A DNA stretch of 64,000 nucleotides from Haloarcula salinisoli. Its GTDB lineage: Archaea > Halobacteriota > Halobacteria > Halobacteriales > Haloarculaceae. Position 1 is the stretch's first letter, and each line of letters starts with the position of its first letter. A program made the translations under genes and the position numbers. Of this stretch, positions 17,803-42,590 are shown piece by piece. The stretch is from assembly GCF_019599405.1 (NCBI RefSeq), contig NZ_RKLQ01000002.1, positions 620,001-684,000 on the forward strand, given 5' to 3'. The notes below the pieces were generated by a model. The model was not told the DNA's origin. It searched no databases and saw only the letters and a list, made by a program, of their open reading frames with translations.

Positions 17803-18852
17803 ATGACAAACGTTACGCGACAGACGACGGACAGACGGGGCCGGTCCCGTCGCCAGGTGCTCGCCGCCAGCGGCGGGCTCCTCGCGAGCGGACTCGCGGG
17901 CTGTCTCGGGGGGAGCGCGGCCTCGAGCGGGCCGACCGCGGTGGCCTCCTTCTTCAGTTTCTACGACTTCGGCCGCGAGATAGCGCGCGAGACGCCCCTG
18001 ACCGTAGAGAACCTCGTCCCGACGGGACTGCACGGCCACGGGTGGGAACCGAACGCCAGCGTCACGCGGGACATCATCGAGGCCGACGCCTTCGTCCACG
18101 TCGGCCCGGGGTTCCAGCCGTGGGCCGACCGCGCCATCCAGACGCTGCAAGACGACGACGTCGACACGGCGCTTATCAACGTCCGGGAGGGCGTCGAGCT
18201 CGTCGACCTGGCGGCGTCGCTGGACCCCGACGAGGAGGGCGTCGGCGAGGGGAAGGGGAAGGACCCGCACTTCTGGCTCGACCCACAACGGGCCGCGCAG
18301 TCGGTCGACAACATCACCGAGGGCTTTGTCGACCTGCTGCCCGACCACGAGGACACCTTCCGCGAGAACGCCGAGACGTACAAGACGGACGTGCTCGGGC
18401 GCATCGACGACGACTACCGCGCTATCTTCGACGCAGCCGAGCGGGACGTGGTGCAACTGGCCGCCCACAACGCCTTCCAGTACATCGGCGTCGCCTACGG
18501 CGTCGAGATGCGCCCCATCGTGACGAACCTGGCCGCCAGTGACGACGTGACGCCAGCCGATATGCGGGACGCCCAGGCGTTCATCAGGGAAAACGACATC
18601 CGCTACATCGCCAACGGCGTCTTCGAGTCCCGTCGGCCGGCCAGGCAACTGCTGGCCGAGACTCGCGTCGAGGCGTACTTCCCCGTGACGCCCTACGCCG
18701 GTGTCCGCGAGGACTGGGTCGCCAAAGAGTGGGGGTACGAGGAGATAGCGGACAACATCAACATGCCCACTTTCGAGGTCGTCCTCGGCAACAAGGCGCC
18801 CGAAGACGCCGGTCCCGACGGGTGGGCCGAGGAGTGGCGGAACTTCGAATGA
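17803..18852 (+). CDS. second zinc-type ABC substrate-binding lipoprotein
   Basis: This 349-residue binding protein is paralogous to the one at 1858..2886. It has a Tat lipoprotein signal (SRRQVLAAS, lipobox GLAGC) and shares HGHGWEPNASV and FQPWAD. The long His-rich loop is missing, replaced by a short stretch DEEGVGEGKGKDPHFW. It may therefore prefer manganese or have a different zinc affinity. The ATPase gene overlaps by 4 bases. A palindrome upstream suggests metal-responsive control. Confidence 0.87.
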   Translation: MTNVTRQTTDRRGRSRRQVLAASGGLLASGLAGCLGGSAASSGPTAVASFFSFYDFGREIARETPLTVENLVPTGLHGHGWEPNASVTRDIIEADAFVHVGPGFQPWADRAIQTLQDDDVDTALINVREGVELVDLAASLDPDEEGVGEGKGKDPHFWLDPQRAAQSVDNITEGFVDLLPDHEDTFRENAETYKTDVLGRIDDDYRAIFDAAERDVVQLAAHNAFQYIGVAYGVEMRPIVTNLAASDDVTPADMRDAQAFIRENDIRYIANGVFESRRPARQLLAETRVEAYFPVTPYAGVREDWVAKEWGYEEIADNINMPTFEVVLGNKAPEDAGPDGWAEEWRNFE

Positions 18853-19601
18853 CTGGGTCCGACACGGAGCCCGTGGTCGCCCTCGATTCGGTTACTTTCG
18901 GCTACACGGCCACGCCAGTCGTCGAAGATATCACACTGGAAATCGACGCGGGCGAGTACGTCGCCGTCGTCGGCCCGAACGGTTCGGGCAAGTCCACGCT
19001 CATGCGACTCGCGCTCGGCCTGCTCCAGCCCGACACCGGGACCGCCCGACTGTTCGGCGAATCCGCCAGCACGTTCGACGACGGCGACCGACTGGGCTAC
19101 GTCGCCCAGCACGCAAGCGCCGCGAAGTCGATGCCCATCACGGTCCGTGAGGTCGTCAAGATGGGCCGATTCCCCCACGTCGGTTTCGGCCGGCTCTCCG
19201 AGTCGGACTGGGCCATCGTCGACGATGCTATCGAGACAGTCGGGATGACGGCCTTGCGCGACCGGCGGGTGACACAGCTCTCGGGCGGGCAGCGCCAGCG
19301 GGCCTTCATCGCCCGGGCGCTGGCCGGCGAGGCCGACCTGCTGGTGCTGGACGAACCGACCGTCGGCGTCGACGTCGAGTCCGTTGCGGACTTCTACGAG
19401 CTGCTCTCGTCGTTGCACGCCGAGGGAATCACCGTCCTGCTCATAGAGCACGATCTCGGCGCCGTCACCGAACACGCCGAACGGGTCGTCTGTCTCAACC
19501 GCGAGGTCTACTTCGACGGCCCGACCGACGAGTTCGTCGCAGGCGATGCCCTGGGCCGTGCGTTCGGAACCGCGGCGAGCCTCATGGGAGACGACGGATG
19601 A
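18849..19601 (+). CDS. second metal ABC transporter ATPase
   Basis: This 250-residue ATPase has Walker A GPNGSGKST, signature LSGGQRQR and Walker B LLVLDEPT intact. It is closely related to the ATPase at 2883..3620. The ATG at 18849 overlaps the binding-protein stop by 4 bases, and the stop overlaps the permease start by ATGA. It drives the second metal importer. Confidence 0.9.
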   Translation: MTGSDTEPVVALDSVTFGYTATPVVEDITLEIDAGEYVAVVGPNGSGKSTLMRLALGLLQPDTGTARLFGESASTFDDGDRLGYVAQHASAAKSMPITVREVVKMGRFPHVGFGRLSESDWAIVDDAIETVGMTALRDRRVTQLSGGQRQRAFIARALAGEADLLVLDEPTVGVDVESVADFYELLSSLHAEGITVLLIEHDLGAVTEHAERVVCLNREVYFDGPTDEFVAGDALGRAFGTAASLMGDDG

Positions 19602-20629
19602 GCGCTACTGTGCTCGCGTTCGGGGCCGGCCTGCTCCAGCCGGGGCCGCTCCAGACCGGCCCGCTCGACCTCCTCTTTGCGCCCTTCTACTGGGTGCTCG
19701 CGCTCTGGTCCGGACTGATGGACTGGCTCGCCGCCGCGACCGGGCTGGGACTGCTCCAGTACGGGTTCATGCACCGGGCGATACTGGTGGGTATCTGCAT
19801 CGGTGTGATGGCCCCCCTCATCGGCACGTTCCTGGTCCATCGTCAGCTCGCGCTCATCGGCGACGCGCTCGCCCACACCGCCTTCGCCGGGGTCGCCATC
19901 GGCCTCTTTCTCAACGCGGTCCTCGATCTGGGCGTCTCGCCGTATCTGACGGCGGTCGTCGTCGCGATGCTCGCCGCGCTGTGTATCGAACTCATCACGG
20001 AGGCGACCGACGCCGACAACGACGTCTCGATGGCCATCGTCCTCTCGACGGGCTTTGCCCTGGGGACGACGCTCATCAGCCTCAACGCTGGGGGGCTCTC
20101 CGTCGGGGTCAACCAGTTCCTCTTCGGGAACCTCTCGACGGTCTCGGCCGAGAACGCGGCCATCCTGCTCGCGCTGTTTACCGTCATCGTCGGCGTGGTC
20201 GCCCTGACGCGCAACCAGCTGCTCTATGTCACCTTCGACGAGACGGCCGCCGCCGTCTCCGGGCTCCCGGTCCGCTGGTACAACCGTGTGACGGTGATGC
20301 TGACGGCGATGGTCGTCGTCGGCGCGATGCAGATTATGGGCGTCATTCTGGTCGCCGCGATGCTCGTCGTCCCCGTCGCCGGCGCGACGCAGGTCTCCCG
20401 GAGCTTCAGCGAGTCCATCCTCGTCTCGGTCGTGCTGGCCGAGCTGGCGGTGCTTTTGGGTATCGGTGTCGCCTACTACGCGGAGGCGACTGCCGGCGGT
20501 GTCATCGTCCTCGTGGCCGTCGCCATCTACGTCACCGCCGTCGGTCTCGGCAAACTCCAGGGCCGCCTCGGCGCAACTGCGGCGCCGGTGGCGGGCCCGG
20601 CCGGTGCCGAGGAGACGGAGTCGGACTGA
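19598..20629 (+). CDS. second metal ABC transporter permease (ABC-3 family)
   Basis: This 343-residue membrane protein has the family segment ALIGDALAHTAFAGVAIG and the late motif MQIMGVILVAAMLVVPVA. It differs from the first permease by an N-terminal extension and a short Ala/Gly/Glu-rich tail. It completes the second cluster A-I importer. Confidence 0.88.
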   Translation: MSATVLAFGAGLLQPGPLQTGPLDLLFAPFYWVLALWSGLMDWLAAATGLGLLQYGFMHRAILVGICIGVMAPLIGTFLVHRQLALIGDALAHTAFAGVAIGLFLNAVLDLGVSPYLTAVVVAMLAALCIELITEATDADNDVSMAIVLSTGFALGTTLISLNAGGLSVGVNQFLFGNLSTVSAENAAILLALFTVIVGVVALTRNQLLYVTFDETAAAVSGLPVRWYNRVTVMLTAMVVVGAMQIMGVILVAAMLVVPVAGATQVSRSFSESILVSVVLAELAVLLGIGVAYYAEATAGGVIVLVAVAIYVTAVGLGKLQGRLGATAAPVAGPAGAEETESD

Positions 20630-20686
20630 CGAACCGACAGCTTTCGCAACCGATATACACGGACTCACGGAATCCCGTGACAAGAC

Positions 20687-20745
20687 GGGCGATGGAGTCC
20701 GCCTGACCCAACCGCCCGGCCCCCCGTCGGGCTGATGACTCCTGT
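20687..20745 (+). ncRNA. fluoride riboswitch (crcB motif)
   Basis: The conserved parts of the fluoride aptamer are present in order: GGGCGATGGAGTCCGCC, then a hairpin GCCC...GGGC, then CTGATGACTCCT. GGAGTC pairs perfectly with the later GACTCC, as expected for the long-range helix. It ends about 11 bases before the ATG of the first CrcB gene, so fluoride binding probably opens or sequesters translation initiation or affects elongation. A possible TATA (GATATAC, about 20652) sits 30-35 bases before the aptamer, so transcription likely begins at its 5' edge. Confidence 0.88.
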
Positions 20746-20756
20746 CCACGTTCGCC

Positions 20757-21146
20757 ATGACAGAGTCACATCCACTGCTGACGGTCGAAACGGTCGTGTT
20801 GATAGGTATCGGCGGCTTCGCCGGCTCGAACCTGCGGTACTTCGTCGGATCGCTGCTTCCGGGGCTGGAGGGGACACTCCTGGTCAACGCCCTGGGCAGC
20901 TTCGCGCTTGGCTTCCTGCTGTACGAGGCGATGCATCTGGGGGTGCTCTCCGGGGAGACCAAGGTCGCCGCGGCCACCGGCTTCCTCTCCTCGTTTACCA
21001 CCTACAGCACGTTCGCCGTCGAGACCGCCCTGACGCCCGAATGGGCCGTGGCGAACGTCCTCGCCAGCTACGCGCTGGGCTTTAGCGGTGTGCTCTTGGC
21101 CCGCCAGGTCGTCGCCGTCTTCGAAGGCGGTGACCCGACGTGGTGA
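20757..21146 (+). CDS. crcB: fluoride exporter subunit CrcB/Fluc, first of two
   Basis: This 129-residue membrane protein has four predicted membrane segments and the family motifs GGFAGSNLRY, NALGSFALGF and GFLSSFTTYSTF. Fluc proteins form dimeric fluoride channels. The two genes here overlap and likely encode a heterodimer, as is common when crcB is duplicated in tandem. A fluoride riboswitch lies immediately upstream. Confidence 0.93.
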   Translation: MTESHPLLTVETVVLIGIGGFAGSNLRYFVGSLLPGLEGTLLVNALGSFALGFLLYEAMHLGVLSGETKVAAATGFLSSFTTYSTFAVETALTPEWAVANVLASYALGFSGVLLARQVVAVFEGGDPTW

Positions 21147-21505
21147 CTATCGAACCCGCCCACCTCGTGGGAACCGGCGGCGCCATCGGCGCCCTCTGCC
21201 GGCACTACCTCGGCTCGGCGGTCGACGTCGAGGGGTTCCCGCTGGGGACGCTCACGGTCAACATCGTCGGGAGCTTCGTCCTCGGGCTGGTCACGTTCGC
21301 GGGTCTCGGGAGCGACCTCCTGCTGTTCGTCGGCACCGGGGCCTGTGGTTCCTTTACGACGTTCTCCTCGTTCTCCTTTGACACCGTCCACCTGTGGGAG
21401 TCGGGTGACCGGCTGAAGGCGGGGCTCAACGCGACCGGAAATCTGGCCGGTGCGCTGGCGGCCATCGGGCTGGCGTGGGGCGTCGTCGCCGTGGCTGGCC
21501 TGTAG
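21140..21505 (+). CDS. crcB: fluoride exporter subunit CrcB/Fluc, second of two
   Basis: This 121-residue protein has four membrane segments. The motifs GGAIGALCRHYLG, NIVGSFVLGL and GACGSFTTFSSFSFD are typical of Fluc channels. The GTG at 21140, or the GTG one codon later, overlaps the end of the first crcB. It is co-regulated with its partner through the shared riboswitch. Confidence 0.93.
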   Translation: MVTIEPAHLVGTGGAIGALCRHYLGSAVDVEGFPLGTLTVNIVGSFVLGLVTFAGLGSDLLLFVGTGACGSFTTFSSFSFDTVHLWESGDRLKAGLNATGNLAGALAAIGLAWGVVAVAGL

Positions 21506-42484: not shown

Positions 42485-42590
42485 GGGCCCTTAGCTTAGT
42501 CTGGTTAAAGCGATCGGCTCATATCGCCTGTGGTGTCCGCCGTCGGCGTGGGACACCGATTGAGCGCTGGTTCAAATCCGGCAGGGCCCA
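42485..42590 (+). tRNA. elongator tRNA-Met (anticodon CAT) with intron
   Basis: The acceptor GGGCCCT pairs with AGGGCCC, and the anticodon arm reads ATCGG-CTCATA, then after an intron A-CCGAT. The intron at about 42524..42554 is at the canonical position after base 37 and would be cut by the archaeal splicing endonuclease. Haloarchaeal elongator tRNA-Met genes commonly have an intron. It is the left border of the accessory segment; its last 13 bases plus T recur at 49651..49664. Confidence 0.9.

Follow-up and report, generated by a model that had tools for sequence, protein, structure and literature searches.

The window, that is, the whole 64,000-nucleotide stretch of Haloarcula salinisoli DNA analysed here, contains two overlapping genes for fluoride exporter subunits, crcB1 and crcB2, preceded by a fluoride riboswitch aptamer. 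The sequence-only reading had placed this aptamer directly before two overlapping fluc genes, and both downstream open reading frames (ORFs) were found to encode CrcB (PF02537), with Pfam scores of 62.4 bits for crcB1 and 86.8 bits for crcB2 (cut-off 32.9). NCBIfam TIGR00494 also recognizes crcB2 (87.7 bits, above its cut-off of 80.45), whereas crcB1 falls short at 61.3 bits. The second gene overlaps the first and may start at GTG 21140 or at 21143. The adjoining upstream region (17803-20629) encodes a metal ABC transporter set that consists of a ZnuA-type binding protein, an ATPase and an ABC-3 permease; because this set ends at 20629, 127 bases remain for the promoter and leader. The features of the locus, in window coordinates, are:

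20652-20659, + strand: putative TATA-like promoter element GATATACA (sequence and the AT-rich peak in 93 sites)
20679-20751, + strand: fluoride riboswitch aptamer, RF01734 (Rfam covariance match and covariation among relatives)
20681-20685, + strand: region in which transcription is predicted to start, some 5 nt ahead of P1 (TATA distance)
20688-20703, + strand: P1 hairpin, GGCG (20688-20691) paired with CGCC (20700-20703) (sequence, covariance model and pair counts)
20694-20699, + strand: pseudoknot 5' strand GGAGTC, inside the P1 loop
20714-20732, + strand: P3 stem-loop, GCCCG (20714-20718) paired with CGGGC (20728-20732) (sequence, covariance model and pair counts)
20734-20771, + strand: candidate ligand-free hairpin (minimum free energy folds; weak, P = 0.34 relative to synonymous codons)
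20737-20742, + strand: pseudoknot 3' strand GACTCC, with U48 next, at 20743
20743-20756, + strand: 14-nt spacer from the pseudoknot to the start codon, without a Shine-Dalgarno (SD) motif
20757-21146, + strand: crcB1, fluoride exporter subunit, 129 aa, ATG start (PF02537, E = 5.7e-17)
21140-21505, + strand: crcB2, fluoride exporter subunit, 121 aa if the start is GTG 21140 (PF02537, E = 1.4e-24)

The identification had been staked on a covariance score no lower than the threshold of the fluoride family; the aptamer matches the full RF01734 model (positions 1-64) with 50.8 bits (E = 3.8e-11), well over the gathering score of 34, and is the sole RF01734 match in the 4.03-Mb genome. All the parts of the crcB aptamer that the sequence-only reading listed, including the GGAGTC/GACTCC pairing, were read directly from the window sequence. 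The nucleotides A40 (20735), U41 (20736) and U48 (20743), numbered as in the bacterial examples and assigned to the window sequence in the present analysis, are all intact. The window is thereby confirmed to contain a genuine new member of the known fluoride aptamer class, and, judging from its sequence, this aptamer would be expected to bind fluoride. The earlier estimate put the end of the aptamer about 11 bases before the ATG; the pseudoknot strand ends 14 nt and the Rfam model (20751) 5 nt before it.

Among 391 haloarchaeal genomes of the class, 66 yielded RF01734 matches at an E-value of 0.001, 34 of them above the cut-off. Further RF01734 matches were added by three family searches, and 93 sites were brought into register. 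These sites came from 71 matches, of which the partial L067 and L068, without a 3' half, were dropped, and from 26 further matches, with 20 taken, four obtained via protein search and two weak ones left out. The set includes L004b and L070, which precede a short ORF rather than crcB, as well as L007 and L012, for which a CrcB blast found nothing and the start codon was placed by hand. In 58 haloarchaeal aptamers with a short P3 (56 distinct), 98.7% of the cells in P1, P3 and the pseudoknot were paired, and changes on both sides of a pair occurred in 50 cells of the 56 distinct aptamers compared to 13.2 in shuffles; when the structure was slid by 1-3 columns, the paired cells dropped to 32-56%. 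The pseudoknot is completely paired in 92 of the 93 sites, with one of its pairs showing four pair types; A40 is present in all 93 sites and U48 in 92, and the clade members in which P3 differs retain the aptamer core. The covariation and the conservation of the pseudoknot indicate that the haloarchaeal aptamer is a real RNA under selection.

Averaged over the 93 haloarchaeal sites, an AT-rich peak lies 35-30 nt ahead of P1. Given that the distance from TATA to the transcription start in archaea is usually about 27 nt, the predicted start falls some 5 nt ahead of P1; the leader would then be essentially the aptamer alone, in the window followed by the 14-nt spacer. In the relatives, too, the AUG follows the pseudoknot strand closely, at 9-21 nt in 88 of the 93 sites. 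An SD-like motif of at least four bases was detected in just 10 of the 93 haloarchaeal spacers, and an SD-based platform was ruled out for the window, the spacer of which carries no such motif. Downstream of the TATA-like element and ahead of the aptamer is a perfect inverted repeat, CACGG-AATC-CCGTG (20667-20680); it was considered as an operator and set aside, as it is not kept in the upstream sequences of the clade members.

Complementarity between the spacer and the strands of the aptamer was analyzed in 123 of 128 sites with spacers of 9-22 nt, from 44 genera. The spacers showed clear complementarity to the 3' strand of the aptamer (genus mean z = -1.79, p = 3.5e-11), and this holds also for the 20 genera outside Natrialbaceae (z = -1.24, p = 8.2e-5). 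The 5' strand, used as a control, showed no excess (z = 0.12, p = 0.38; outside Natrialbaceae, z = -0.31, p = 0.04). The spacer and the 3' strand can form a Watson-Crick stem of 6 bp or longer in 37 sites, compared to 2.7 in shuffled sequences, and one of 7 bp or longer in 21 sites, compared to 0.5. The motif CAGCC abuts the ATG in 38 of the 93 sites vs. 2 of 521 other ORF starts, a control set that was drawn from the relatives' loci and the window and includes shadow ORFs; among 35 additional Natrialbaceae sites, 16 likewise have it before the ATG. When the region from the 3' strand to the first codons was folded, many relatives paired GGCUGA(U/C)G with the sequence abutting the AUG, as in the hairpin of locus L060, GGCTGACGG-TCCCTGT-CCGTCAGCC-ATG. 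In family f8, the spacer of five of the eight sites instead contains GGAG, a possible pairing partner for the CUCC in the pseudoknot strand. Two sister species differ by a double change, GATGAC/GTCATC (L017) vs. GACGAC/GTCGTC (L043), that preserves the pairing of the off state. When spacers were swapped between families, the native one performed better in just 48 of 88 cases for the spacer alone and in 54 of 88 when codons were included, suggesting that the pairing is shared in kind and not finely matched pair by pair. Covariation between position 41 and its would-be off-state partner, spacer position -7, was not significant (p = 0.20).

We consider it probable that this fluoride riboswitch is a translational ON switch for the two-gene CrcB exporter. 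When fluoride is bound, the GGAGUC/GACUCC pseudoknot and the A40-U48 pair would lock and keep the 3' strand within the aptamer, leaving the start-codon region accessible. Without fluoride, the freed 3' strand (GGCUGAUGACUCC) would pair at the start codon and hamper initiation. Its partner in many relatives would be the spacer abutting the AUG (CAGCC and longer sequences) and, in the window, probably the first codons (GAGUCA). crcB2 would then follow by translational coupling, given its overlap with crcB1. The ON direction is suggested by the role of the exporter and by the mutually exclusive pairing. Control at translation initiation, which had already been put forward, draws support from the comparison with relatives, that is, from the spacing, the lack of U-runs, the predicted transcript start and the complementarity; the last point, however, fails for the window's own spacer. 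Translational control is thus the best reading, initiation being the stage at which these leaders leave the most obvious scope for regulation.

The start region of the window itself is unremarkable in these respects. Its spacer was no more complementary to the aptamer 3' strand than expected by chance (z = 0.38, rank 0.59). In the candidate ligand-free hairpin obtained from minimum free energy folds, TGACTC and CTGTC pair with GACAG and GAGTCA in codons 1-4, such that the start codon lies in the loop and at the edge of the stem, and the hairpin competes with the pseudoknot strand. A similar stem reaching into the coding region is predicted in six clade members including the window, none stronger than expected from synonymous codons for MTESHPL (P = 0.34 for the window; 0.07-0.40 across the six by fold energy), the hairpin being largely dictated by the Glu-Ser codons. 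Two further folding results count against the switch as proposed: the minimum free energy fold of the whole leader forms neither P1 nor P3, and the start region is predicted to stay partly paired even when the pseudoknot strands are kept single-stranded. As both the spacer and the hairpin of the window are unremarkable, its mode of action has to be argued from the relatives.

An alternative is that occlusion of the start codon involves no dedicated hairpin, with the access to the AUG set by the pseudoknot state alone or by a leader whose 5' half is misfolded, and with the hairpin of the window being a by-product of its Glu-Ser codons. Apart from the spacer and hairpin of the window falling within chance expectation, the minimum free energy fold has the 5' strands of P1 and P3 paired to each other, and GAGTCA also opens crcB genes without a riboswitch (L094 and L098). 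Considering that a specific competing hairpin is present in many relatives, we regard this explanation as possible but rather doubtful. Alternatively, the aptamer could act through mRNA stability, with the fluoride-locked fold shielding the transcript at its 5' end; the complementarity of the spacers would then be secondary. The predicted position of the aptamer at the extreme 5' end of the transcript would suit it to blocking 5' decay, and the window indeed lacks the spacer complementarity. This scenario leaves unexplained, however, both the spacer match to the 3' but not the 5' strand in 44 genera and the short distance to the AUG, and appears unlikely.

Control of transcription elongation or termination within the leader, as in Bacillus cereus, has its precedent in the best-studied fluoride riboswitches, which are transcriptional according to PMC8752731 and PMC11077080. 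Yet none of the 128 spacers contains a T5 run and only eight contain four T, so that there is no evident U-tract terminator, and the 9-21 nt to the AUG in 88 of the 93 sites cannot fit a terminator hairpin with a U-tract. With both U-runs and sufficient space before the AUG missing, termination was rejected, and we deem control of elongation or termination quite improbable.

Within the genus, crcB1 was found in 32 of the 32 genomes searched and the riboswitch in seven, showing that the switch is patchy in its distribution; in 15 loci (L078-L092), crcB1 directly follows another ORF, without a leader. That the aptamer is a functionless relict in this genome, as this patchiness and the degenerate copies seen in Natrialbaceae might suggest, is highly improbable because the core nucleotides, the pseudoknot, the promoter-like element and the spacing are all intact in the window, and the core is retained in clade members despite their different P3.

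A distinct variant of the aptamer was identified in Natrialbaceae (family f3: Natrinema, Natrialba, Natronorubrum and others). These riboswitches share the architecture and the gene pair with the window, but differ from it in having C41, a GGGGCC/GGUCCC pseudoknot with a G-U pair, and a P3 often expanded by tens of nucleotides. C41 replaces the conserved U41 in 76 of the 78 readable Natrialbaceae sites, namely, 41 of 43 in the initial set and all 35 further ones, the latter from 47 additional genomes in which 40 loci were taken, 35 with a readable 3' half. Outside Natrialbaceae, C41 was found in one of 50 sites. For comparison, PMC11077080 describes a U41A mutant of the B. cereus switch that does not respond to the ligand and was used as a control. 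The Natrialbaceae aptamers retain A40, P1 and the pseudoknot and mostly U48 (T is next in 31 of 35); the columns outside P3 are nearly invariant, and the P3 loops are often longer. RF01734 matched in 43 of the 125 Natrialbaceae genomes, with eight matches above the cut-off, whereas a model tailored on 22 Natrialbaceae aptamers matched in 90 of the 125; in the 47 newly found genomes, its matches were upstream of crcB1 in 40 of the 40 examined. The loci with C41 aptamers, often with an expanded P3 and mostly under the Rfam gathering score, are L032-L066, L101-L108 and L149-L188. From these sequences, we read the C41 aptamer as likely functional and under selection.

Like the RF01734 riboswitches of B. 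cereus and Thermotoga petrophila, the window aptamer combines P1, P3, a six-pair pseudoknot, the A40-U48 linchpin and U41, and precedes crcB. The two bacterial riboswitches, however, switch an intrinsic terminator, as reported in PMC11077080 and PMC13273304, whereas the window aptamer ends 14 nt before the AUG, without room for a terminator. High-throughput covariation analysis of fluoride expression platforms has been done for the terminator types, according to PMC13273304. An archaeal precedent is the fluoride riboswitch of Thermococcus kodakarensis (Speed et al. 2018, cited via PMC8241225 and PMC4247193), which is described in PMC8241225 as presumably translational, a property that the haloarchaeal switch would share. 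That riboswitch is reported to precede TK0513 and not the crcB gene TK0514, and the haloarchaeal leaders differ in being mostly devoid of SD-like motifs (83 of 93). In PMC8241225, the T. kodakarensis switch is called the only natural archaeal riboswitch determined experimentally. The same paper describes synthetic theophylline riboswitches in Haloferax volcanii, in which the start codon is masked without the ligand and freed with it, much as proposed here; those switches are engineered and also mask the SD motif, whereas the haloarchaeal fluoride switch is natural and SD-less. A start-site study of Haloferax volcanii (PMC4983044) took the view that structured leaders are not the rule in haloarchaea. 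Our open-access literature search, with subscription journals mostly outside its range, retrieved no report of natural fluoride riboswitches in haloarchaea, and neither their arrangement at the start codon nor the C41 group turned up in it. The aptamer class is already known; both this arrangement and the aptamer with C41 appear to be new variants.

The broader proposition is that haloarchaea possess a distinct, SD-independent fluoride riboswitch in which a strand before the AUG is complementary to the 3' strand of P3 and the pseudoknot, so that folding of the aptamer excludes masking of the start, and, in Natrialbaceae, a working C41 aptamer with an expanded P3 that falls largely below the Rfam threshold; we consider the case for this proposition evenly balanced. 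A compact riboswitch adjacent to the start codon in many haloarchaea would offer a tractable natural example of translational control without an SD motif, and the organisms concerned combine good genetics with high internal salt. The C41 aptamers of Natrialbaceae would provide a direct natural test of the role of U41 in fluoride recognition.

Several other fluoride riboswitches were noted in the course of the searches. At L004b (the second copy at L004) and L070, the riboswitch before crcB is preceded, at about 415 nt, by a second fluoride riboswitch; the short ORF that it precedes (start ATGGGACAACAGGATACA) has a clear SD-like AGGTGGAGGT. Two loci from archaea of the same phylum, L215 (G809 contig C3, 200500-216000) and L216 (G749 contig C16, 69000-83500), each contain seven over-threshold fluoride riboswitches within about 13 kb. 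In both, the genes nearby encode a prenyltransferase-toroid protein, glutamine synthetase and F420-0:glutamate ligase, along with MFS and ABC transporters in L215, and a CPA2 antiporter and a chaperonin in L216. Each of these regions looks like a fluoride-controlled gene island. In other archaea of the phylum (L122, L125, L126, L131, L132, L134, L135, L140 and L145), a riboswitch is located about 14-23 nt before a gene with a start of the GGFAFCKPL or GGYCFYRL type; these beginnings resemble the prenyltransferase-toroid proteins of L215 and L216, and, in several cases, an SD-like GGTGG or GAGGTG lies in between. Elsewhere in the window, an Rfam tRNA match (42485-42590) has 33 bases, probably an intron, at a place in the anticodon arm for which the model allows two; ARAGORN did not report this tRNA.
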